Of a DNA stretch of 38,051 nt, positions 3,967 through 38,051 are shown piece by piece. Every line of letters starts with the position of its first letter. Position 1 is the stretch's first letter. The stretch lies in IMG/VR virus record IMGVR_UViG_3300037297_000093, positions 1-38,051 of that record; one strand, given 5' to 3'. Made by a program: the position numbers and the translations under genes. Origin of the DNA: a virus. The notes under the pieces are model-generated. The model saw only the letters and a program-made list of their open reading frames with translations. It was not told the DNA's origin and did not search any database.

Positions 3967-5142
3967 ATGCGGATACATTGGGCAGTTAATACAAATTATA
4001 TCGGTATAGGATTTGGATATTCAACTCATCAAAAGAGACTTAGAGAAGGCTTAGAGCGGCAAGGTGTTGAAATTACCGAGAAATCTGATATCGCGGTACA
4101 CCTTACAACCCCTGATGCCTTTCGCCCCATTCCCGGAAAATTCAATATTCTGTATACAATGTATGAATGTACCACTTTGCCGAAAAGATGGGTTGATCCG
4201 ATTAATAAGGCTCATGCGTTAGTGGTCCCATGCAGGCAGAATGTTGCTTTATTCCGGAACTATACAAAATTACCACTTGCTTTATGTTGGGAAGGTGTAG
4301 AGGTAGACAAGTATACTTACATCGAGCGAGAATTTCCAGAAGATCGGCCATTTACTTATTTGTGGTTAGGTGCTTCAAATCCACGGAAGGGGACAGAGCA
4401 TATAATTTATGCATGGGAAAGATTCAATATTGAATTACAAATGCGTGGAATGGATAGAACCAAATTTTTACTTATTTTGAAAACCACCCAGGAACGTGAC
4501 AGGGAAGTGGGAGTCAATTTCAAGTTTAAAAATAAACAAGGGAAATTACTTTGGGAGGAAACAAAAAGCGAAAAGATGCCAGCAGAAAGATTATTGCAGG
4601 TTGCCGGAAATGCTATTTTTGATTCTCGGCGGTTGCCTGTCCTGCCTGTCAAATGTGAATACAATCTTAATGAACCAAATTCTTTACAGGAAATCTATCA
4701 TGCGGCTCATTGTTTTGTACTTCCAACTCGTGGGGAGGGCTTCGGGTTAACCTTGGCAGAGGCGGCGGCGACTGGTTGCCCTTGCATCTATACACCATGG
4801 GGCGGGCCAAAAGATTTTATGAGTCGAGATACTGGATATCCTTTGAAATTTAAGTTTTCACCGGTCCGAGCCATAGGTTATAGAAAAAATAAAGAATCCG
4901 GGAAAATGGAAAAATATATTTCTCATGAAAGCCAGGGGGCTGACGCTGATATAGATCATATTGTTAGACGTATGTTTCAAGTTTATTTTGATTATAAAAC
5001 AGCTTTGGAAAAAGGGAAAAAGGCGGCTGAAAATATACGGGCCGGGTTTACCTGGGATATATCAGCTCAATCATTTATAAAAATTGTTGAAAACTGGATG
5101 CCAGTGATTCAAGAAAAATTAAAGGAGATTAAAGCGGCGTGA
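3967..5142 (+). CDS. Glycosyltransferase, GT4-like (GT-B fold)
   Basis: The 391-residue product resembles retaining GT-B glycosyltransferases of family 4. The clearest sign is the C-terminal nucleotide-sugar site at about residues 250-285 (HCFVLPTRGEGFGLTLAEAA, then ATGCP), with the EGFGLTLAEA signature and the ExxxxG(C/T)P continuation. WLGASNPRKGTEHIIYA (about 133-150) is the usual strand and loop following the inter-domain linker. The N-terminal half has a gapped sugar-acceptor domain. It sits between capsid and tail genes and overlaps the sulfotransferase-like gene by 4 bases, so it is probably co-translated. The acceptor could be a virion protein, phage DNA or host surface sugar; the sequence does not say which. 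It could also be GT1-like in older naming. Confidence 0.85.
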   Translation: MRIHWAVNTNYIGIGFGYSTHQKRLREGLERQGVEITEKSDIAVHLTTPDAFRPIPGKFNILYTMYECTTLPKRWVDPINKAHALVVPCRQNVALFRNYTKLPLALCWEGVEVDKYTYIEREFPEDRPFTYLWLGASNPRKGTEHIIYAWERFNIELQMRGMDRTKFLLILKTTQERDREVGVNFKFKNKQGKLLWEETKSEKMPAERLLQVAGNAIFDSRRLPVLPVKCEYNLNEPNSLQEIYHAAHCFVLPTRGEGFGLTLAEAAATGCPCIYTPWGGPKDFMSRDTGYPLKFKFSPVRAIGYRKNKESGKMEKYISHESQGADADIDHIVRRMFQVYFDYKTALEKGKKAAENIRAGFTWDISAQSFIKIVENWMPVIQEKLKEIKAA

Positions 5143-5810
5143 ATAAGATAATGTGGTTTTTTCTACACGTTGTAAAAACTGGCGGTACCACACTTTTTAA
5201 ACATATCGAAAAACATTTTCCAAATTCTCGACGAGTTAATATTGGTATACGACCGAAAAGCACAGACGAATTTATCTCTGGTCACTGTTTTGCAATTAAT
5301 TTAAACAGTCATAAGCCTTTTAAAAATGTTGATCCTCGATATATTACTATTATCCGGGATCCGGCCGACTGGCTCCTCTCTGTTTATCATCAGGACATGA
5401 GCAGAAGGGATAAAATTATTTCTTTCCGCGATTGGTACGATTGCGGAAATCCAAATTCAGTAATTCCCGGACCTACCAGGGCCAGGGACAGAATGACAAA
5501 ATATCTTGAAAATCTTTTTTGTTGTAACGGTGTTGAAAATATTATCTATCATCTTAACAATACTTTTTATAAAGTTTTCATTACAGATAAATTAAATATT
5601 GATTTACCAAAGTTTTTTAAAGAGCTTGGAATCAATGAAGATTTTGAATCGTGGCGAGTATGCGGTAAGTATTCGAAAGAGGACAAAAAAATTATTCCTA
5701 AGCTTCAGGAAATGACACCTGATTTAAGAAATATGATATATAAGCAAAACACAATGGATTTAAAAATATATGTTGAGGCAAGACGTATAAGAGGAGCAAG
5801 CAATGAATAA
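5139..5810 (+). CDS. PAPS-dependent sulfotransferase-like protein
   Basis: This 223-residue protein begins with GTG overlapping the previous stop (GTGA), with AAAGGAGA upstream. It shows the two PAPS-binding elements of the carbohydrate sulfotransferase superfamily. The 5'-phosphosulfate loop is FLHVVKTGGTTLF (8-20), with Lys13 and Thr17/Thr18. The 3'-phosphate loop is ITIIRDPADWLLSVYH (69-84), with Arg73, Pro75 and Ser81. The internal SGH (47-49) is also common in the family. Length is near the short end but both cofactor sites are present. In the family the product is a sulfated sugar or tyrosine. Between a glycosyltransferase and a radical SAM gene, sulfation of a sugar is the natural inference. 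Confidence 0.8.
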   Translation: MNKIMWFFLHVVKTGGTTLFKHIEKHFPNSRRVNIGIRPKSTDEFISGHCFAINLNSHKPFKNVDPRYITIIRDPADWLLSVYHQDMSRRDKIISFRDWYDCGNPNSVIPGPTRARDRMTKYLENLFCCNGVENIIYHLNNTFYKVFITDKLNIDLPKFFKELGINEDFESWRVCGKYSKEDKKIIPKLQEMTPDLRNMIYKQNTMDLKIYVEARRIRGASNE

Positions 5811-6636
5811 TATTTTATTTTTCCCTACGATGAGATGTAATTTAAAATGTTCTTACTGTCATTTCAAGGTTGACAGAAACAAAGAGGATTATGATTGGAC
5901 TGGATACGGCAAAACACATCATATAGAGAGAGAGCTTCCCTATCAAGACTTTTTAACCTTTTTTGAAAAGGTTCAACCTTATCACCTGGAATTTTCCGGT
6001 GGAGAGCCGACGATCTATTATGATTTTAAAAATCTTGTGAATAATATTCATGATGGCTCAAAATGGGCGATTACTTCTAACACTTTAGGCGATTTATCCG
6101 GAATTGATTTTTCAAAACTGGAATGCTGGACCGCTTCATGCCATACAGAAAATCAAAGATTTTTTGACAACATAATGTATTTAAAATCAAATGGTGTTAG
6201 CGTTTCAATTTCAATGGTGGTTACAAAGGCAAACATCGAAAATGTAATTTACAGGACTATAAAATATTCAAAATACGGCGTTAGGATTAATCTTTTAAGA
6301 GAGCTAAACCCGGGTGTATCATGGAATAATACTGAAGAGTGGGAAGTCTTGAAAATCATGAAGCACTTAGGCGTAAATGTTGTTGAAGATGATATACCGC
6401 CAGAATATGAATTCACAAGCGGGTGGTATTGTGAAGGTGGGCGGGCTTATTTTTCTGTCATGCCTGACGGTAAAGTTTATCGATGTTATTCCGAAGCAAT
6501 GACAGGTGAACCTTTGGGAGATGTAAAAACTTTTTCGCCTGGTAGCAATCCTACTGAATGTTATCGAAAATGCTTCGGCTGCGCTATGGATTACAAAGCA
6601 CACGTTCACAAATTGCAAAATAAAGATTGCAAATAA
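5803..6636 (+). CDS. Radical SAM protein with SPASM-like C-terminal cysteines
   Basis: The 277-residue product carries the radical SAM motif C12-x3-C16-x2-C19 (RCNLKCSYC), which binds a [4Fe-4S] cluster and S-adenosylmethionine, and the GGEP motif at 66-69. The C-terminal third has more cysteines: WYCEGG, YRCYS, then C253, C257, C260 and C276. This resembles SPASM or twitch auxiliary-cluster regions of enzymes that modify peptides or sugars. The start overlaps the sulfotransferase-like gene by 8 bases, with GAGGAGC upstream. No small precursor-peptide gene is obvious alongside. The substrate is unknown; a third step on the same acceptor as the two upstream enzymes is an inference from gene order only. 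Confidence 0.88.
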   Translation: MNNILFFPTMRCNLKCSYCHFKVDRNKEDYDWTGYGKTHHIERELPYQDFLTFFEKVQPYHLEFSGGEPTIYYDFKNLVNNIHDGSKWAITSNTLGDLSGIDFSKLECWTASCHTENQRFFDNIMYLKSNGVSVSISMVVTKANIENVIYRTIKYSKYGVRINLLRELNPGVSWNNTEEWEVLKIMKHLGVNVVEDDIPPEYEFTSGWYCEGGRAYFSVMPDGKVYRCYSEAMTGEPLGDVKTFSPGSNPTECYRKCFGCAMDYKAHVHKLQNKDCK

Positions 6637-20057: not shown

Positions 20058-20082
20058 AAAAATAGGCCGAGTTTCCCCGGCC
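20058..20082 (-). terminator. Leftward intrinsic terminator-like hairpin
   Basis: Read leftward, GGCCG (20082-20078) pairs with CGGCC (20069-20065), with one more G-C pair beyond a mismatch. It is followed by TATTTTTG, a U-tract. It would stop transcripts coming from the left control arm before the zinc-ribbon gene. Confidence 0.55.
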
Positions 20083-20135
20083 CAAAGCCAAAAACGATGT
20101 AAAAGCTTCACTCTCCTTTCAAATAGATTATTTTG

Positions 20136-20156
20136 AACCATCAACGATGGTTTTTT
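20136..20156 (+). terminator. Intrinsic terminator of the structural/lysis operon
   Basis: AACCATC (20136-20142) pairs perfectly with GATGGTT (20146-20152) across a three-base loop and runs into TTTTTT. It lies about 260 bases after the last rightward lysis gene and faces the leftward control arm, so it probably ends the late transcript. Confidence 0.85.
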
Positions 20157-20164
20157 AATATTTA

Positions 20165-20188
20165 AAGCCGGATTGCTCCGGCCTTTTT
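20165..20188. terminator. Second terminator hairpin, probably two-way
   Basis: GCCGG (20167-20171) pairs with CCGGC (20178-20182) around loop ATTGCT and runs into CTTTTT for rightward transcription. In the leftward direction the same hairpin ends in CTTTAAAT just after the 54-residue gene. Its leftward sequence, 17 bases long, is identical to a hairpin after the gene of the right arm (21169-21185). Confidence 0.75.
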
Positions 20189-20190
20189 GA

Positions 20191-20355
20191 CTACATATAC
20201 TTTTCTTTAAATTCGCTTAATGTCAACTTGGTTGTTTCTGAATAATATGTATCAAAAATGTAAACATATTTGTAGCCAACTTTTGATACATGATCATGTG
20301 CTGTTACCATTCTGTCATTTAATCCGTTTACATAACTAATAATTTGTTTTCTCAT
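20191..20355 (-). CDS. 54-residue protein of the left control arm, unknown function
   Basis: This leftward frame starts at ATG 20355-20353 with a strong GCGGGGGA site and ends at TAG 20191. The product begins MRKQIISYVNGLND, has a central aromatic stretch (GYKYVYIFDTYY) and ends with an amphipathic helix (LTLSEFKEKYM). No family is recognised. It is the first gene of a leader copied, inverted, in front of the 96-residue gene at 20868. The two proteins share only a loose pattern (an MxK start and K-V ... DTYY/DTFF), too weak to call homologous. It is followed directly by the shared hairpin. Confidence 0.6.
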   Translation of the reverse strand: MRKQIISYVNGLNDRMVTAHDHVSKVGYKYVYIFDTYYSETTKLTLSEFKEKYM

Positions 20356-20365
20356 TTTTCAATCC

Positions 20366-20461
20366 CCCGCGCTTACAGGCCGCCGCCGATTTGTTAAGGT
20401 CTTAATTGACCTTATCTATTATTAAGTGTAGCACAAGTGATATAGTATGTCAATAGCAAAT
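20366..20461 (-). repeat. Inverted repeat, left promoter-leader arm
   Basis: The reverse complement of this stretch nearly matches 20765-20860. The first 45 bases, including promoter elements, are the same; the following leader differs at scattered bases and by one indel; then a 13-base GC-rich block (ATCGGCGGCGGCC) is again identical. The arms face away from each other, around the helix-turn-helix gene. Confidence 0.9.
20425..20453 (-). promoter_or_regulatory. Leftward promoter PL of the control region
   Basis: Read leftward: TTGACA (20453-20448), a 17-base spacer, then TACACT (20430-20425) with an extended -10 TGC just before it. The consensus -35 and exact spacing make this a strong sigma70-type candidate. 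Transcription would start near 20418 and enter the 54-residue gene through a leader with a TAAGGTC/GACCTTA hairpin. Confidence 0.8.
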
Positions 20462-20510
20462 ATGAAAAAAAATCGATTATTTTCATCTTTTTTTTTGATT
20501 AAAATAGGGC

Positions 20511-20540
20511 TTTACTTTTATATATCTTTTGTGCTATAAT
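20511..20540 (+). promoter_or_regulatory. Promoter of the helix-turn-helix gene
   Basis: A perfect TATAAT (20535-20540) with extended -10 TGC is preceded, 18 bases upstream, by TTTACT (20511-20516). The expected start of transcription is about 20547, the A of the ATG, so the message would have no 5' leader. The TTGTGCTA just before and into the -10 is shared with both flanking arm promoters. Confidence 0.7.
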
Positions 20541-20546
20541 CTCAAT

Positions 20547-20753
20547 ATGAATAATAGAAAATATACAATAAAAGATGCCATGAAGGAAACAGGGCTTTCG
20601 CGGCAGAGAATTAACCAGGCTATTACCCTGTATGGAATCGGAGAAAAAAACCGATTTTATCGCTGGATGCTGAATAAGAAAGAAATTGCCTATATAATAG
20701 AAAGAAAGGGTCAATTTGGCCGAAATTCCTTAAAAAAAAGTAAAAAAAAGTGA
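20547..20753 (+). CDS. Small helix-turn-helix DNA-binding protein, candidate switch regulator
   Basis: The start is ATG 20547. No Shine-Dalgarno sequence precedes it, and an upstream in-frame start at 20529 would lie inside the -10 element. The 68-residue product opens with YTIKDAMKETGLSRQRINQAI (residues 6-26), a clear helix-turn-helix like those of MerR/excisionase-type proteins, then a second basic region and a Lys-rich end (SLKKSKKK). It sits between the two divergent arm promoters, the expected place for a regulator acting on both. A small repressor, activator or excisionase are all possible; no recombinase gene was seen to support the last. Confidence 0.75.
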   Translation: MNNRKYTIKDAMKETGLSRQRINQAITLYGIGEKNRFYRWMLNKKEIAYIIERKGQFGRNSLKKSKKK

Positions 20754-20764
20754 ATTATTTTTGA

Positions 20765-20860
20765 ATTTGCTATTGACATACTATATCACTTGTGCTACAC
20801 TTAATAATAGTTAAGGTTAATTAAGCCTTACCAAATCGGCGGCGGCCAATAAACGCAGGA
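20765..20860 (+). repeat. Inverted repeat, right promoter-leader arm
   Basis: This is the partner of 20366-20461. It holds a promoter, a leader hairpin (TAAGGTT at 20812-20818 with AGCCTTA at 20824-20830, loop AATTA) and the GC-rich block at 20835-20847. The left arm has the same stem with changed but still paired bases (TAAGGTC with GACCTTA). Confidence 0.9.
20773..20801 (+). promoter_or_regulatory. Rightward promoter PR of the control region
   Basis: TTGACA (20773-20778), 17-base spacer, TACACT (20796-20801) with extended -10 TGC. It is the mirror copy of the leftward promoter, with the same spacer sequence. It should drive the 96-residue gene and probably the early genes beyond. Confidence 0.82.
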
Positions 20861-20867
20861 GACTGAG

Positions 20868-21158
20868 ATGACAAAGAGAGAAGTTGTAAAACAGGTAAGA
20901 GATATTATAGTTGGTAATTCCATTGACAATATCTGCAAAGTATACAAGAGTGGAAAGTCTTGGAAAATAGACACTTTTTTCGGACTCGATCCTGAATGGA
21001 AAAAAATGTATCAGGATGAAGCATTTGTATTAAGTTTCAGCCATTGTTGTAATGAAATGACATTAAAAGAGACAGAACAGCTTTTCGATAAAAAACTTGA
21101 TATTGCATTACATGGTATAACTCTACCAAAAGAACTTGAAGCTTTATTGCATTATTAA
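20868..21158 (+). CDS. 96-residue protein of the right control arm, unknown function
   Basis: The ATG follows a GCAGGAGA ribosome site at the end of the duplicated leader. The product is charged and probably helical (MTKREVVKQVRDIIVGN, FDKKLDIALHGITLPKELEA) with an aromatic centre (WKIDTFFGLDPEWKKMY) and a Cys pair (SHCCNEM). No family is recognised. As the first rightward gene after a regulated promoter it is probably made early in infection. The hairpin GGCCGGAGCAATCCGGC follows its stop. Confidence 0.65.
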   Translation: MTKREVVKQVRDIIVGNSIDNICKVYKSGKSWKIDTFFGLDPEWKKMYQDEAFVLSFSHCCNEMTLKETEQLFDKKLDIALHGITLPKELEALLHY

Positions 21159-21168
21159 TAAGAAATAT

Positions 21169-21185
21169 GGCCGGAGCAATCCGGC
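21169..21185 (+). other. Hairpin copy shared with the left arm
   Basis: GCCGG (21170-21174) pairs with CCGGC (21181-21185) around loop AGCAAT. The 17 bases are identical to the leftward reading of 20167-20183. No U-tract follows (TAATAAAAGG), so here it may mark a processing site or 3' end protection rather than termination. Confidence 0.6.
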
Positions 21186-21202: not shown

Positions 21203-21289
21203 GTGATTATTTTAATAGGATTTTTAATTTTATTAATTTGTTTAATAAAATCAGGTAGGGATGACCCGAAAAAGCCTGATGATAAATAA
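21203..21289 (+). CDS. Membrane microprotein, 28 residues
   Basis: From GTG 21203 with AAAGGA ten bases upstream, the frame encodes one membrane helix (IILIGFLILLICLI) followed by a short charged tail (KSGRDDPKKPDDK). The sharp change from hydrophobic to polar and the good ribosome site support a real gene; the small size keeps confidence moderate. Function unknown. Confidence 0.45.
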   Translation: MIILIGFLILLICLIKSGRDDPKKPDDK

Positions 21290-21316: not shown

Positions 21317-21673
21317 TTGAGTGAATACAAAGAGGTTAATCTTAACACGATTAATTCAGGTGCAGCGATTGACTTATTTAACGAAGAATTTGGAAAAGTC
21401 ATTGACAACATCATGGACGAAAACACAAAGGCCGATACTGTAAGAGAAATTCAAATCTCTGTCAAAATAAAACCCAATAAAGACAGGTCGGCAGCTTCAA
21501 CACAAATTCAAGTTAAAAGCAAAATGGCTCCTTTAAAGCCGCATGAGCATTTTTTTCACTTTGCTAATGACGGTCACAAAATAAAGGCGCTCACTCACGA
21601 CCCAGGTGTTCAGGATATACCAGGGCTCTTGGATGGTGATCCGAAAATCAAAAATATAAAGGAGGGTATTTGA
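21317..21673 (+). CDS. Conserved phage protein, replication-terminator-like in some annotations
   Basis: The start is TTG 21317 with GAAAGGATG upstream. The 118-residue product begins YKEVNLNTINSGAAIDLFNE and continues with beta strands (REIQISVKIKPNKDRSAAST, QIQVKSKMAPLKP). I recall this pattern from small phage proteins sometimes labelled replication terminator protein, usually followed by the family of the next gene, as here. The label is a memory-based match and the biochemical role is not established from sequence. Confidence 0.5.
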   Translation: MSEYKEVNLNTINSGAAIDLFNEEFGKVIDNIMDENTKADTVREIQISVKIKPNKDRSAASTQIQVKSKMAPLKPHEHFFHFANDGHKIKALTHDPGVQDIPGLLDGDPKIKNIKEGI

Positions 21674-22401
21674 TGGACAATACTTTTGTTGAAGCTGTTG
21701 AAAAATTGGTTTTAAAGTCAACAGAGGTTCAAGAAATTAATGGAGAATTTTATTCTCCTGTACAACTTCACAGAATAAAGGAACATTTTAAACCAGAGTC
21801 ATTAAAAGTGAACACTCTTTCAGGGTTTCTTGATTATATTCATGGTAATCTTGATAAATTAGATTTTGAAAAAGAAGTTGTAATTCACATTGTTAGTTAC
21901 AATAAAGTAATGCTTTTATCAAATCTTGATGATGAGTTATCTAGAGAATGTTATATTCAGGCAATGCCTTTGAATGAAAGCAAAAACTTTGAAAATTGGC
22001 AAAATCAGGAGCAGTTTATTATCAATTTAAACTCTCAATTTGTTGATACTCCTGATAAAAAAGAATTGCTTCAATTTGTTAGTAAAATTGTAGTTAATGA
22101 TGAAAATAGCGTTTCAGATGATGGAATATCGCAAAAAGCAAGCTTGAAAAAGGGATTGTCAGGTTCTTTGACAGAAAAAAAAGAATCTAAATCAATTGTC
22201 AAGTTGGCGCCTTACCGTACTTTTACGGAAATTGAGCAGCCTATTTCAGAATTTCTATTCAGAATGAAAATGGATTCTGATAAAATGCCAGGTCTTGCTT
22301 TGTTTGAGTCAGATGGTAATTCCTGGAAGCTTGATGCAATGGAAAAAATAAGACAATGGATTCTTGATAATATCAAGGTTCAGACTCTTATCATTTGTTA
22401 A
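21673..22401 (+). CDS. Conserved phage early protein, unknown function
   Basis: ATG 21673 has GGAGGG seven bases upstream and overlaps the previous stop; a TTG three bases earlier is possible. The 242-residue product contains VNTLSGFLDYIHGN, EVVIHIVSYNKVMLLSNLDD, LNSQFVDTPDKKELLQFVSK and the well-kept VKLAPYRTFTEIEQPISEFL. This order of motifs is familiar from a widespread phage protein found next to the preceding gene's family. No catalytic residues are evident. It ends just before the gene-free RNA region. Confidence 0.6.
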   Translation: MDNTFVEAVEKLVLKSTEVQEINGEFYSPVQLHRIKEHFKPESLKVNTLSGFLDYIHGNLDKLDFEKEVVIHIVSYNKVMLLSNLDDELSRECYIQAMPLNESKNFENWQNQEQFIINLNSQFVDTPDKKELLQFVSKIVVNDENSVSDDGISQKASLKKGLSGSLTEKKESKSIVKLAPYRTFTEIEQPISEFLFRMKMDSDKMPGLALFESDGNSWKLDAMEKIRQWILDNIKVQTLIIC

Positions 22402-22593: not shown

Positions 22594-22662
22594 GCTTGGG
22601 TCGTTTAATGGCTAAGACAATAGGGCGCCCTATAAATTCAGGTTCGATTCCTGACCCAGGCA
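22594..22662 (+). tRNA. tRNA-like element 2 with a four-base anticodon loop (not a normal tRNA)
   Basis: GCTTGGG/CCCAGGC forms a seven-pair acceptor stem (22594-22600 and 22655-22661). A D-arm (GTTT/AGAC), a T-arm (TCAGG, TTCGATT, CCTGA at 22638-22654) and the usual connecting bases are in place. The anticodon arm is ATAGG, loop GCGC, CCTAT (22620-22633). The loop has four bases instead of seven, so there is no anticodon and no U33. An upstream GCCTGG (22584-22589) could compete for the acceptor strand. No CCA is encoded. Confidence 0.6.
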
Positions 22663-25378: not shown

Positions 25379-25527
25379 TAATTATAGAAGAAAATGAAAA
25401 AGGTAGGTTTTATGTAGACAGTGGCCTTTTTCACGTTCAAACACCAAACAATCAAATCAAATCATCAAATAGTGCAATTATAGCCTATGAGATGTTTAAA
25501 AAACTGAAAAGGAAGGTTAAGAAATGA
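25375..25527 (+). CDS. Small basic protein between recombination genes
   Basis: This 50-residue frame is coupled on both sides by ATGA overlaps: its ATG lies in the preceding stop and its stop lies in the SbcD-SbcC start. AAGGATG precedes it. The product (GRFYVDSGLFHVQTPNN in the middle, KKLKRKVKK at the end) is basic at its C-terminus. No family is recognised. Confidence 0.55.
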   Translation: MIIIEENEKGRFYVDSGLFHVQTPNNQIKSSNSAIIAYEMFKKLKRKVKK

Positions 25528-28500
25528 TTAAAATAGCCCATACTGGAGACGTTCACGTCTGCCGGAAATATAAAGACGAGGCTTTCGCCTCATTAAAGAC
25601 GCTAATTGATACGGCTTGGAAAGAGGAAATCAATCTTTTTGTTTTAGCCGGGGATCTTTTTGACGCGTCAATGCAAAATACGGCGGCTGATGGATTTCCA
25701 GAACTTAATAACTTGGTTCAAGAAATGATGAATATTGCTCCTGTTGTAACCGTTTACGGGACCCCTACCCATGACATAATGGGGTGCTATGATGTTTTTA
25801 CTAGGCTTGATGCAAAACATCCTTTTATAATTCTTGAACCTGGAACCGCATATTTTTTGAATAATGATAATAGAATAGATTTCAAATATTCACAAGATGC
25901 AAAATTTTTAATTCTCGGATGTCCTGAACCACAAAAAAATTGGTTTGTTGGGAATAATAAAGCCATGAGCCGCGAAGAGTCAAACCAAGCCATTATTGAC
26001 GGTATGAAAAATATTCTTTTAGGACTTGGCGCTATTCGAAAAGAATATTTACATTTACCATGTTTGATGGTTTATCATGGAAATGTTGCCGGCTCTACTC
26101 TCCAAAACGGCCAATTATTGGGACAATCAGAAATTACAATCGGGAAAGATGATCTTGCCATGATAGGTGCTGATTACTACGCTATTAATCACATACATTT
26201 ATATCAGGAATTATTTCTAAATGCTTTTTATTCCGGCTCAGTTTATCCGGTTGATTGGGGCGAACGTGACCAAAAAGCTTTTAATCTGGTTACATTTGGA
26301 GAAATGGAAAAATGGTTTCCTCCTCATCCAGGAGACAGACCAGAATTCAAAATTGCTTTAAAAAAAATCAATTATCCTCACGCTCCATTAAAAAAGATTG
26401 AAATGTCATTATCTGATTTAAAAAATGGTCTATTTGTTGAATATATGGGTTTTAAAACATGGTTAGAAATTTCATGTAATGATGAAGAGGCCAAAGAAAT
26501 AAATATTCAAAAATGGACTAATGATATTATAAATCTTGGAGCCCTTCCAGGCTCTAAGATAACAATAAGAAAAATTGCCCGTGAAACTGTCCGCGCTGAA
26601 GGAATTCAAACAGCTAAACACCTGAGAGATAAAATAAAAGTATACGCTGAAGCCTCAAGCTTGCCAACGCCGGAAGACTCAATATTTGAAAAAGCCGACA
26701 AACTTGAAAAAGAACTTTATCAAAACGGCTCGAAATTCCATGAATTAAATATCAGAATGAAATCTTTACACCTTCGCGGGGCTATTGGCATCATGAAAAA
26801 GTCAGATAAAGAGGAAATCAAAATTGATTTTGAAAATTATGAGCCTGGCTTGATTGCTTTAATCGGTCAAAACGGAGCCGGGAAAACTACTCTATTAGAA
26901 AATTTGCATCCTTATCCAAGTTTATTGACTCGCTCAGGAAAATTGCAAGATCATTTTCAATTAAGGGATTCATTCAGGGATTTATATTTTATCGACGAAC
27001 GAACAGGAATAGAATACAGGGCCTTTATTCAGATTGACGGTCAAAATCAATCTGGAAAATGTGATTATAATATTTTCAGGAAAAACAATTCTGGAACTTT
27101 TGAGCCTTTGACAAATGGGAGAGCAAAGGATTATGAAGAAAAAGTCAATGAATTATTTGGAAGCTTAGACCTATTCCTCAAATCTGCTTTTATTACTCAA
27201 AAACCGCCGAAGGGAAGCCCGGACTTGTCAGAAGCAACAAAGGGACAAAGAAAAGCTTTATTCCTGGAACTTGCAGGGCTTGAAAAATATCAGAAGTTTT
27301 CAGAAAATGCAAAAGAGAAAAGAAAAAGCCTCGAAGACTCAACCCTCAAAACATCTGGACAAATTGAGGCTTTAAAATTTGACCTTGAGCAAAAAGAAAA
27401 GATTAAAAATGATTTTTATCAAGCCAAAGAAAAAAAAGATTTTTTAATATCTCAATTAGTAGATATTGAAAAAAAAGGTCAATCTTCAAAAGCAGAACTT
27501 GAAAAGCTTGAAAAAGAATCATCAGAGAATGACAAAATTTTATCTGAAATAAAACAGATAAAAGAAAAGATTTCTGAACGGAACGTCGAATTAATTACAA
27601 ATGATAGAGTCATAAAAAATGTAGAATCTTCCCTATTAAACAAAGATGAACACAAAGAAAAAATAGTTTTATTCGATTCTATTTCAAAAAAGCTTAAAGA
27701 TATCTACTCTCAAAATGAAGAGATCAGAAAAAATAATTCTGATTTACAAGATTCATTTTTACAAAATCTTGGTTTTTATGATGATAAGATAAATTTATTT
27801 AAAGAAAAAATTCATGAAAAAGAAATTGAAATAAAAGAAAAATACAATAAATATATAAACGCGCAACAGGAAAAAATAAGAGCAGAAAAAGAAATTGAAA
27901 AACTAAGTAATGAAAAAAACTGTCCTACTTGCGGTCAAGAATTGCCAGAACAGGCAAAGAGAAATATTCAATTAAATATTGTAGTTTTAAAAGATGGTGT
28001 CAAAATAAAAGTTGATAGCTTAGAAATCTATAGCAAAGTAATATCAAAACTAAAGCTTGAAAAACAAGAGCTTGAAAACCAAAAAGCAAATCTTTTAAGA
28101 CCCTTGAACCCTGAATATGAAAACGAAATAGACTCTTCAAAATTTCAATCAGTCTTAGACAAAATCAATATTGAAGAGTCAAGAAAAATTGTTTCTGACG
28201 CCGAGCAAGCAGAATTCATTATTAGCGAAAAGAAAAAAGACAATTTAAAACTTGCATCAGATAACGAATATGACAAAGCGAAGCTTGAAAAATTGATAAA
28301 TAAATATGATGAAAATATACCTCACATTTTAAAAGAAGTGAAAGAAGGCTATGCAAAATTACAAGATGATTATTCAATAAAAAAAGCAGATATAAAAGGA
28401 ATTGAAGCACAAATTGAATTCCTTGAAAAAGCTTTGACTGAAATTTACGATAAATCAAAAAAACTTGATGAACTCGAAAAAGAAACAAGCAAAACAAAAA

Positions 28501-29012
28501 AAGAGATTTCAGAATGGTTATTCCTGGAAAAAGCCTGTGGGCCTGACGGAATCCAGGCGCTTGAACTGGACGCATTAAGCCCAAATATTGAATCAGAGGT
28601 CAATAATATTTTGCGGTCCGCCTATGGTGATCGGTTTTCAATTAAATTCGAGACTACCAGAATCGGAGGTACCGGGAAAAATACCAAACAGATTGAAGAT
28701 TTTTTAATCATGATTAATGATAACGGTCATATTCAGGAACTATCAACGCTATCAGGGGGTGAGGAAGTTTGGATCAAAAAAGCTATTTATGATGCTTTCG
28801 GAATTATCAGGAATCAAAATACAGGCACTAACTTTTTGACGGTTTGCATGGATGAAGCCGACGGATCGCTTGATCATGAAAGCAAACAACAATATTTGAA
28901 AATGGTTCAGGCCTCACACCTTCAGGCAGGGAAACATCATACTATTTTAATTACTCATGACACGTTTATTCAACAGCAAATCGATCAAAAAATTATTATG
29001 AGTGAACTATAA
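25524..29012 (+). CDS. SbcD-SbcC (Mre11-Rad50) single-chain nuclease-ATPase fusion
   Basis: The 1162-residue protein joins two enzymes usually encoded by separate genes. The N-terminus is a metallophosphoesterase: GDVH (8-11), GDLFD (43-47), GTPTHD (79-84, in place of GNHD), YHGN (184-187) and NHIH (222-225). The rest is an SMC-like ATPase: Walker A GQNGAGKTT (448-456), two coiled-coil arms around a zinc hook CPTC (800-803), signature LSGGEE (1076-1081) and Walker B with Asp1110-Glu1111. SbcCD trims DNA ends and hairpins. A fusion would fix one nuclease per ATPase. All main ATPase motifs are present; the third nuclease motif is altered. The frame has no break. Confidence 0.92.
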   Translation: MIKIAHTGDVHVCRKYKDEAFASLKTLIDTAWKEEINLFVLAGDLFDASMQNTAADGFPELNNLVQEMMNIAPVVTVYGTPTHDIMGCYDVFTRLDAKHPFIILEPGTAYFLNNDNRIDFKYSQDAKFLILGCPEPQKNWFVGNNKAMSREESNQAIIDGMKNILLGLGAIRKEYLHLPCLMVYHGNVAGSTLQNGQLLGQSEITIGKDDLAMIGADYYAINHIHLYQELFLNAFYSGSVYPVDWGERDQKAFNLVTFGEMEKWFPPHPGDRPEFKIALKKINYPHAPLKKIEMSLSDLKNGLFVEYMGFKTWLEISCNDEEAKEINIQKWTNDIINLGALPGSKITIRKIARETVRAEGIQTAKHLRDKIKVYAEASSLPTPEDSIFEKADKLEKELYQNGSKFHELNIRMKSLHLRGAIGIMKKSDKEEIKIDFENYEPGLIALIGQNGAGKTTLLENLHPYPSLLTRSGKLQDHFQLRDSFRDLYFIDERTGIEYRAFIQIDGQNQSGKCDYNIFRKNNSGTFEPLTNGRAKDYEEKVNELFGSLDLFLKSAFITQKPPKGSPDLSEATKGQRKALFLELAGLEKYQKFSENAKEKRKSLEDSTLKTSGQIEALKFDLEQKEKIKNDFYQAKEKKDFLISQLVDIEKKGQSSKAELEKLEKESSENDKILSEIKQIKEKISERNVELITNDRVIKNVESSLLNKDEHKEKIVLFDSISKKLKDIYSQNEEIRKNNSDLQDSFLQNLGFYDDKINLFKEKIHEKEIEIKEKYNKYINAQQEKIRAEKEIEKLSNEKNCPTCGQELPEQAKRNIQLNIVVLKDGVKIKVDSLEIYSKVISKLKLEKQELENQKANLLRPLNPEYENEIDSSKFQSVLDKINIEESRKIVSDAEQAEFIISEKKKDNLKLASDNEYDKAKLEKLINKYDENIPHILKEVKEGYAKLQDDYSIKKADIKGIEAQIEFLEKALTEIYDKSKKLDELEKETSKTKKEISEWLFLEKACGPDGIQALELDALSPNIESEVNNILRSAYGDRFSIKFETTRIGGTGKNTKQIEDFLIMINDNGHIQELSTLSGGEEVWIKKAIYDAFGIIRNQNTGTNFLTVCMDEADGSLDHESKQQYLKMVQASHLQAGKHHTILITHDTFIQQQIDQKIIMSEL

Positions 29013-32188: not shown

Positions 32189-33515
32189 AAAAAGAATGTT
32201 AAGCCCGGATATCTGGCGGGATAAAAAAACTATCCAACTAACTAATGAAGAATTTATTTTAATGATAGGCGCAATTTCTGCTGCTGACGATGAGGGAATA
32301 ATTGAGCCTGACCCAGGTTCATTTTTTTTTGAATTAGGACGACAGGAACTATCAACAGAGACTATTCAAAAAGGATTTGACAAACTTTTTAAGCTTGGAA
32401 TTCTTGTTAAATATGGAGATTACGCCTTTTTCCCGAACTGGTTTAAGCATCAGTATCTTGACAAACCGCAACCAACAAAGCACGAACGACCGCCAAAAAG
32501 CGTGATTGACCAGTTCCCAAAATATGCAAAGCAATGGATAGAGACTTTTAAAAAGTGTTCAAAAATGCAAGAAGTTTATGAATTCCCATATGGCCCAGAA
32601 AACACTTTAATATGTATGAAAAATCATACACTTTTAAAAGCTATTGACCTTGAAAATTTTGCGATTATAGAAAGCAAAAGAACATTCTCGGAACGTTCCC
32701 AGAACAATCCTGGATTAATCCGAGAACAATCCTGGAACGTTCCAGCCAGCAGCGAAGAGCAAAAAACAACAAAATTGGAGGATGATCCTACAATTGAGAA
32801 GGTTTTTGACGAAAATATTGCTATCGAAGAGCAAAAGAACATTCTCGGAACGTTCCTGGAACGTTCCGAGATTAATCCAGGAACGTTCCCGCCTAAAAGA
32901 AAAGAAAAGAAAAGAAAAGAAAGTAAATTAATAGAACCGAACCAAAAAGAAATTAATAAAAAAGAACCGAAAAGAACCGAACCGAAAAGAGATGATGAAA
33001 AAAAAATCTCGAAAAAGCCAATCGGATTAATTACCAGCATGGTCAAAGATTTTCTTGATTTTAACAAGCTCGAAATAAATGATTCTCTTTTGCCAGAAAT
33101 CGTTGATAGGATCATTGACAAAAACCTTGACCGTTCATTTTGTGATTATTGTTTTGAATATGCAAAAAATAAAAATCCGGCCAGCTTAGAAGGATATTTT
33201 ATAAAATGCATTTTGAAATTTGACAGCCTTATCGATTCCTGGAAAGAAACAAAAGGACTTGATTTTGAAATCAAAGAAAAAATTCCGATCAAATCAGAGT
33301 TAGAAAAAGAATGTCCAAATTGTAAAGTAATCATGAAACACGATAAAGGCGAATTTCAATGTAAAAAATGCCAGGCTGTTTATAAATTAAAAAAAGGCAA
33401 ACTTGAAAAGATCACGGCTGAAGAAATACCTAAAGAGGCTTTCAAGCTTGAAAATTATTTAGATGATAAAAAAGGCGATAAGCCTGATGATAAAATTGAA
33501 TTAGGGATTTTTTAG
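32181..33515 (+). CDS. Replication organiser/initiator with internal origin
   Basis: The 444-residue product has an N-terminal winged-helix region (SPDIWRDKKTIQLTNEEFIL, then ISAADDEGIIEPDPG and KLFKLGILVKYGDYAFFPNW, about 7-105), like replisome organiser proteins of Gram-positive and other phages. A low-complexity, very basic middle (about 170-280) is encoded by the repeat blocks and by purine-rich DNA. A helical domain at 285-360 and a zinc-ribbon pair at about 373-395 (CPNC ... CKKC) close it. In lambda O the initiator gene also contains its own binding sites. It would load the helicase at the origin; no helicase or polymerase gene was identified in the window. Confidence 0.72.
   Translation: MARKRMLSPDIWRDKKTIQLTNEEFILMIGAISAADDEGIIEPDPGSFFFELGRQELSTETIQKGFDKLFKLGILVKYGDYAFFPNWFKHQYLDKPQPTKHERPPKSVIDQFPKYAKQWIETFKKCSKMQEVYEFPYGPENTLICMKNHTLLKAIDLENFAIIESKRTFSERSQNNPGLIREQSWNVPASSEEQKTTKLEDDPTIEKVFDENIAIEEQKNILGTFLERSEINPGTFPPKRKEKKRKESKLIEPNQKEINKKEPKRTEPKRDDEKKISKKPIGLITSMVKDFLDFNKLEINDSLLPEIVDRIIDKNLDRSFCDYCFEYAKNKNPASLEGYFIKCILKFDSLIDSWKETKGLDFEIKEKIPIKSELEKECPNCKVIMKHDKGEFQCKKCQAVYKLKKGKLEKITAEEIPKEAFKLENYLDDKKGDKPDDKIELGIF
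32679..32743 (+). repeat. Iteron block A of the likely origin
   Basis: Six decamers start at 32679, 32690, 32701, 32712, 32723 and 32734, each separated by one base, so exactly every 11 bp: AGAACATTCT, GGAACGTTCC, AGAACAATCC, GGATTAATCC, AGAACAATCC, GGAACGTTCC. Three are perfect palindromes. The 21-base pairs at 32701 and 32723 also read as direct repeats. Confidence 0.85.
32836..32889 (+). repeat. Iteron block B of the likely origin
   Basis: Five decamers start at 32836, 32847, 32858, 32869 and 32880, again every 11 bp: AGAACATTCT, GGAACGTTCC, GGAACGTTCC, AGATTAATCC, GGAACGTTCC. A purine-rich stretch follows (AAAAGAAAAG repeats from about 32896 and further GAACCGA repeats to about 33010), with AT-rich patches that could melt. 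Confidence 0.85.
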
Positions 33516-37601: not shown

Positions 37602-38051
37602 TAGACTTTTTATTTTCCAGCGTCAAAAATGTTCAGGATAAATATACAAAATATTTTGGCTCAAAGACTAAAGAGTATGAAAGCCTTTTTTCTGATCCTA
37701 CCTTGAAAAAAATATTCGAAAACCTGGGAGGCTCAAAGAAAAAACTAACAAATGATTTCAAGCAGCTGCCCATTGTCTATGCTTGCATTAATTCAAAGTC
37801 AAGAAATATTGCATCGGTGCCTTGGCGGTTTTTCAGGAATAATTCAGATATTGAGTTGAACGACAACGACCCTATAAAAATATTATTTTCAAGCCCAAAT
37901 GCATTTATGACCGAGAATGACTTGTTTTATGCCATGGAGGCTTTTCTTTGCTCAAAAGGCGAATTCTTTTTTTATCCTGACATTGAGGATTTATATCGGG
38001 GAATTCCATTGAATCTTTGGTTATTTAATCCCAACGACGTGAAGAAAACCG
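37592..38051 (+). CDS. Portal-MuF fusion protein, 5' part
   Basis: The frame opens with TTG 37592 inside the end of the terminase gene. No ATG is available upstream of 37904 in this frame, so TTG (or a GTG/ATA nearby) is the likely start. The first residues read GVIDFLFSSVKNVQDKYTKY, then QLPIVYACINSKSRNIASVP with the typical portal start of helix and PWRFFR. It continues at position 10 of the window through the 127-base overlap. The ribosome site is GGCGGGGGCGG, unusually GC-rich and inside the terminase coding end. Confidence 0.85.
   Translation, partial: MGVIDFLFSSVKNVQDKYTKYFGSKTKEYESLFSDPTLKKIFENLGGSKKKLTNDFKQLPIVYACINSKSRNIASVPWRFFRNNSDIELNDNDPIKILFSSPNAFMTENDLFYAMEAFLCSKGEFFFYPDIEDLYRGIPLNLWLFNPNDVKKT
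37925..38051. repeat. Terminal overlap, right copy
   Basis: Exact copy of bases 1-127 in the same orientation. Removing one copy gives a 37,924-bp circle with an intact portal gene. Confidence 0.95.

Follow-up and report, generated by a model that had tools for sequence, protein, structure and literature searches.

The question raised by this locus is whether a small phage regulator gene is enclosed by two mirror-image copies of one control unit, and whether both copies answer to the same signal. The window (the whole stretch of DNA analysed, 38,051 nucleotides) is in effect a complete phage genome of ~37.9 kb, since an exact direct repeat of 127 bp stands at both of its ends (1-127 and 37925-38051). 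Its GC content is 35%. Comparison with PHROGs identified structural genes for portal, capsid, tail, and terminase, as well as early genes for a DNA methyltransferase, a replication initiator, and an SbcC-like protein; this is a small tailed phage. All recognised genes lie on the + strand with the exception of a short leftward unit at the mirror-image region, and the composition profile had no skew switch beyond this local strand change. A terminase search in genomes for the host gave no match.

Several features stand apart from the locus. A 1162-aa ORF (25524-29012, +) combines an SbcD-like metallophosphoesterase N-terminus (PF00149, E=7e-7) with an SbcC/Rad50-like ATPase (phrog_77, E=2e-39), as a fused SbcCD. 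Repeat arrays of GGAACGTTCC and GGATTAATCC type within the replication-initiator gene (32673-32889, +) are probable origin iterons. A tRNA-like sequence (22594-22662, +) scored 46.5 bits with Rfam RF00005, above the gathering score, and ARAGORN made no call there. Glycosyltransferase and radical-SAM genes are located between the capsid and head-tail adaptor genes (3967-6636, +), an unusual place for cargo.

The duplication itself was evident by several routes. A repeat search and BLAST independently identified inverted copies at 20359-20494 (-), the left arm, and 20732-20866 (+), the right arm (BLAST E=3.8e-39, 85% identity), and a gapped alignment bore out the claim of the initial annotation that a duplicated control unit surrounds the regulator gene in inverted orientation. 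Each arm reads, in transcript sense, as an A/T-tract region, a 46-nt core, a hairpin of 19-20 nt, the block CAAATCGGCGGCGGCC, and a ribosome site. The core, ATTTGCTATTGACATACTATATCACTTGTGCTACACTTAATAATAG, is perfect in both arms, as is the 16-nt block, while the hairpin region between them has a few substitutions and one indel. Likeness falls to roughly 75% in the ribosome-site stretch and tapers off at the flanking genes' start codons; ahead of the core, it is limited to A/T-tracts over 35 nt. The promoter-leader part had been described as about 96 bases that are almost identical. A near-identical stretch is present, and its extent is better given as ~102 columns at ~90% identity, from the core to the start codon (20359-20459, -, against 20767-20866, +), where 11 of about 102 columns differ when counted on the gapped alignment. 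If an equal number of mismatches were scattered at random, a run of 46 nt would be expected with P=0.0012.

Other accounts of the arms were considered beside a true duplication. A fold-back during assembly, which the initial annotation had named as a possible artefact, was rejected because the arms differ at enough places: its copies would be ~100% identical, yet 22 of the 137 alignment columns differ, and the genome closes with its 127-bp terminal repeat. A mobile element with terminal inverted repeats was not found either, as there is no transposase, only the 68-aa HTH gene lies between the repeats, and the repeats end at start codons. In another account, recombination between the inverted cores would let the HTH segment invert and so homogenise the arms, making their identity no sign of shared regulation. 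Long inverted repeats, 46 nt perfect and about 300 nt apart, are what this requires. Homogenisation should ignore functional borders, however, yet the 16-nt block is perfect and the intervening hairpin is not; moreover, no recombinase was present in the ORFs examined and no second orientation is known, which leaves this explanation improbable. An old inverted duplication of the promoter-leader unit appears to be the best explanation, and the perfect core and 16-nt block within otherwise diverged arms argue for selection (or conversion) acting on promoter, spacer, and leader.

Table 1. Positions of the predicted features of the mirror-image region and its neighbours.
Feature	Position	Strand	Remarks
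Zinc-ribbon-like ORF, 69 aa	19830..20039	-	Beyond the left terminator; supported by coding bias
Terminator-like hairpin of left transcript	20063..20084	-	GAAA loop, TATTTTTG
Further terminator-like hairpin	20135..20153	+	Possible insulator against late transcription
Left GCAA-loop hairpin	20167..20183	-	Strong T-run CCTTTTTG in + direction
Left small gene, 54 aa	20191..20355	-	No known family
Left GC-rich block CAAATCGGCGGCGGCC	20378..20393	-	Perfect 16-nt match between arms
Left leader hairpin	20395..20414	-	UAAGGUC-AAUUAA-GACCUUA, few nt from predicted RNA 5' end
Left promoter	20425..20453	-	TTGACA -35, 17-nt spacer, extended -10 TGTGCTACACT
Regulator's own promoter	20511..20540	+	TTTACT-18-TATAAT with TTGTGC
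Winged helix-turn-helix regulator, 68 aa	20547..20753	+	Between the arms
Right promoter	20773..20801	+	Same sequence as left promoter
Right leader hairpin	20812..20830	+	UAAGGUU-AAUUA-AGCCUUA, 7-bp stem
Right GC-rich block	20832..20847	+	Perfect 16-nt match between arms
Right small gene, 96 aa	20868..21158	+	No known family
Right GCAA-loop hairpin	21169..21185	+	No U-tract
phrog_997 ('replication terminator') and phrog_1029 genes	21317..22401	+	Conserved pair, early operons of Firmicutes phages

Both arms contain a promoter of sigma-70 type by sequence (TTGACA-17-TACACT with an extended -10), and a third predicted promoter precedes the regulator gene. Compared outside the extended -10, the spacer of this third promoter agrees with the arm spacer at 9 of 13 positions (binomial P 0.002). 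Genome-wide, it ranks first in spacer likeness to the arms among 140 non-arm extended -10 sites, and only the two arms outscore it among the 142 extended -10-like sites. This likeness is the main indication that the three promoters probably share one operator and regulator. The earlier proposal that both promoters answer to the same signal is thereby made likely, given perfect spacer identity between the arms that is partly repeated at the regulator's promoter, and we consider shared bidirectional control of the two arms to be quite likely. Part of the common spacer, TTGTGCTA, is ordinary extended -10 sequence that also occurs at unrelated phage promoters. A candidate operator, TATCACTTGTGCTA, was rejected as a genome-wide regulator site, with good matches at only the three local promoters and much of it equal to the extended -10 consensus.

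The gene between the two outward-facing, near-identical units had been annotated as that of a regulator, and its product is indeed a probable DNA-binding protein. Structure prediction without an alignment, of fairly good confidence (pLDDT 80.5), gave a winged helix of MerR/RacA/GlnR/Xis type, resembling RacA, GlnR, CarH, and phage excisionases. Fold matches reached a TM of about 0.7 to RacA/GlnR/CarH, with none at E<0.001, and Pfam scores were below their cut-offs, including that for HTH_17 (E=0.046). Codon use of the gene is neutral relative to the phage coding bias. Its ATG follows the -10 hexamer of its own promoter by about 6 nt, which suggests that the mRNA is probably leaderless. That the 68-aa protein regulates both arms is somewhat favoured, and if it is the regulator, repression would be a fairly likely mode rather than activation.

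The leaders differ from each other within the hairpin, where a C-G pair has become U-A, a U-A pair has become U-G, and the loop has a deletion, and the 7-bp stem is kept in both. Pairing kept through such changes points to a role in RNA rather than DNA, though two sequences are a thin basis. Placed relative to the -10, the hairpin is predicted to begin a few nt from the RNA 5' end. It is conceivable that the duplicated RNA is what matters, with hairpin and GC-rich block forming a cis element akin to nut or put, through which RNA polymerase is modified or the mRNA stabilised, and the HTH gene being incidental. The retention of both elements at the extreme 5' end of the two predicted transcripts is consistent with this, and bacteriophage HK022 provides a precedent in the related put RNAs downstream of its pL and pR (PMC9378689). 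Set against it, neither leader matched a riboswitch or known leader in Rfam, and their folds were no more stable than those of shuffled sequences (z -0.75 and -1.2). No boxA was found in the early transcripts, in which the best boxA-like words had 2-4 mismatches and were not common to both arms. Nor did the fold give a put-type RNA of ~70 nt with two stem-loops, the leader having a single short hairpin in place of two long ones. We regard this explanation as unlikely.

A further pair of hairpins lies at the outer ends of the region. The 17-nt sequence GGCCGGAGCAATCCGGC, which forms a GCAA (GNRA) loop, occurs exactly once on each side, 7 nt after the stop codon on the left and 10 nt on the right, and no other copy exists in the window when up to 3 mismatches are allowed (0.01 expected). 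The arms had been said to end in the same hairpin; the sequences are identical, but they are not a matched pair of terminators. Read outward, the pair did not have the U-tract of intrinsic terminators, as a weak U-run (CTTTAAATATT) follows the left copy and none follows the right. Without a U-tract, the right copy would not end the transcript on which it lies, and the early operon runs on past it. The left copy with its T-run could instead act as a terminator for inward, late transcription of the + strand, and the terminator-like sites of that strand at 20135-20188 should separate the control region from the late operon. Identical GCAA-loop hairpins, of which the right one has no outward U-tract, also resemble a protein-binding RNA hairpin, a point in favour of a duplicated RNA element.

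The two small genes share the coding bias of the main genes of the phage, at 0.22 log-odds per codon compared with 0.25 in the neighbouring phrog_997 gene. Neither protein matched PHROGs, Pfam, or phage records, and a structure model of the right gene product was of low confidence and was not used. As the initial annotation had stated, the genes differ between the arms; ordinary alignment found no significant homology, whether local or global (P 0.2-0.8). An alignment anchored at the N-termini gave P=0.004, a post hoc value from a comparison chosen after viewing the sequences, which is a hint that the flanking genes, too, may have been part of the original duplication. Two independent moron-like cassettes (promoter, leader, gene, and hairpin) could conceivably have come to flank an unrelated small gene by chance, since neither arm lacks any part of such a cassette and the flanking genes have no clear homology. 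This seems a poor prospect when the right arm runs on into the phrog_997/phrog_1029 early operon, the arm spacer is common to the HTH promoter, and the anchored comparison hints at diverged copies. The phrog_997/phrog_1029 pair also recurs in Treponema contigs. Directly after the right hairpin there is a GTG-started ORF of 28 codons with a ribosome site (21204-21289, +), whose product could be a one-helix membrane peptide (VIILIGFLILLICLIKSGRDDPKKPDDK).

Relatives of the region were sought in IMG/VR and phage records. Neither the core nor the leader was found in other contigs by exact or relaxed DNA patterns, and the 15-nt GC block by itself would match too widely among GC-rich phages to be useful as a search pattern. 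For the three small proteins, the only matches were to HTH segments and were short or weak; among them was a homing-endonuclease-like ORF. The closest sequence found to the 68-aa regulator was the C-terminal HTH (SIKQAMKETGLSR) of a GIY-YIG-like ORF (L122:2458-3087), hinting at an origin of the regulator in the DNA-binding part of a homing endonuclease. No comparable inverted arms were present among 165 loci with neighbouring early genes; in L134, which is among the closer neighbours, the corresponding place is occupied by an ordinary XRE-like repressor that faces just one early promoter. As far as the searched data go, the mirror-image unit appears to be private to this lineage, and its conservation is judged from a pair of copies within a single genome.

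The reading we prefer, by a modest margin over even chances, is a bidirectional control region for early transcription that arose by an old inverted duplication and is co-regulated by the small HTH protein. Host RNA polymerase would fire both outward promoters together on infection, and each would make a leader of ~60 nt that has a hairpin at its 5' end and the invariant GC-rich block. The right promoter would open the early/replication operon, and the left would drive a short unit encoding small proteins for host takeover or accessory roles. As the product of the third promoter's transcript, the HTH protein would bind all three spacers and shut the promoters down together in negative autoregulation, while hairpin and GC block probably act on the RNA, perhaps in 5'-end protection or as an elongation aid. 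A fully symmetric switch, in which one winged-HTH protein acts at three promoters through an operator common to their spacers and a new two-part leader RNA element in mirror image (5' hairpin and GGCGGCGGCC block) acts on RNA polymerase or mRNA lifetime in both early transcripts, is doubtful.

Among known systems, the lambda immunity region (oL-pL-nutL / cI / oR-pR-nutR) is similar in that outward early promoters, here predicted from sequence, flank a regulator gene. In both, the regulator has its own promoter with a leaderless transcript (probably so in this phage), related sequences occur in both early transcripts, and the first genes are small. The initial annotation had set a switch that fires both ways at once against a lambda-like choice. 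This contrast is false because in lambda, too, pL and pR lie on either side of cI, face outwards, and fire at the same time under joint control by one repressor. Unlike in lambda, promoters and leaders are near-copies here, the leaders have no boxA/boxB pair, and a 68-aa protein predicted to be a MerR/Xis-like winged HTH stands in place of a CI/XRE-type repressor, with no Cro-like second regulator. HK022 is similar in having related leader RNA elements behind both divergent early promoters (pL/putL and pR/putR), but its put RNAs are ~70 nt with two long stem-loops, and the distance between the pR start and putR is ~270 nt (PMC9378689); here, one short hairpin and a linear GC block are directly at both predicted 5' ends. 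No integrase was found among the ORFs scanned against PHROGs and Pfam, a set that includes part of the small ORFs, and because boxA, a CI-type repressor, and an Rfam family were likewise not found, we did not class the locus as a member of the lambda/HK022 type. The SAS/ESAS elements of cluster K mycobacteriophages also place a repeated sequence near start codons with an inverted-repeat part upstream, but in 11-19 copies mostly of one orientation, whereas here there are exactly two, in mirror image and with the promoter included (PMC3203893). As a rule, the two promoters of a divergent phage control region differ, and so do the programmes that they drive. A mirror-copied unit that is identical only at the promoter core and one leader block shows which bases matter, and its two copies can be compared within one genome to locate the operator and leader element of a phage lineage without a studied member. 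By analogy, the layout would work as pL-pR with nut or put does in lambda and HK022, ordinary in principle and unusual in its symmetry; such a symmetric form of this familiar kind of phage control region had not been seen before.
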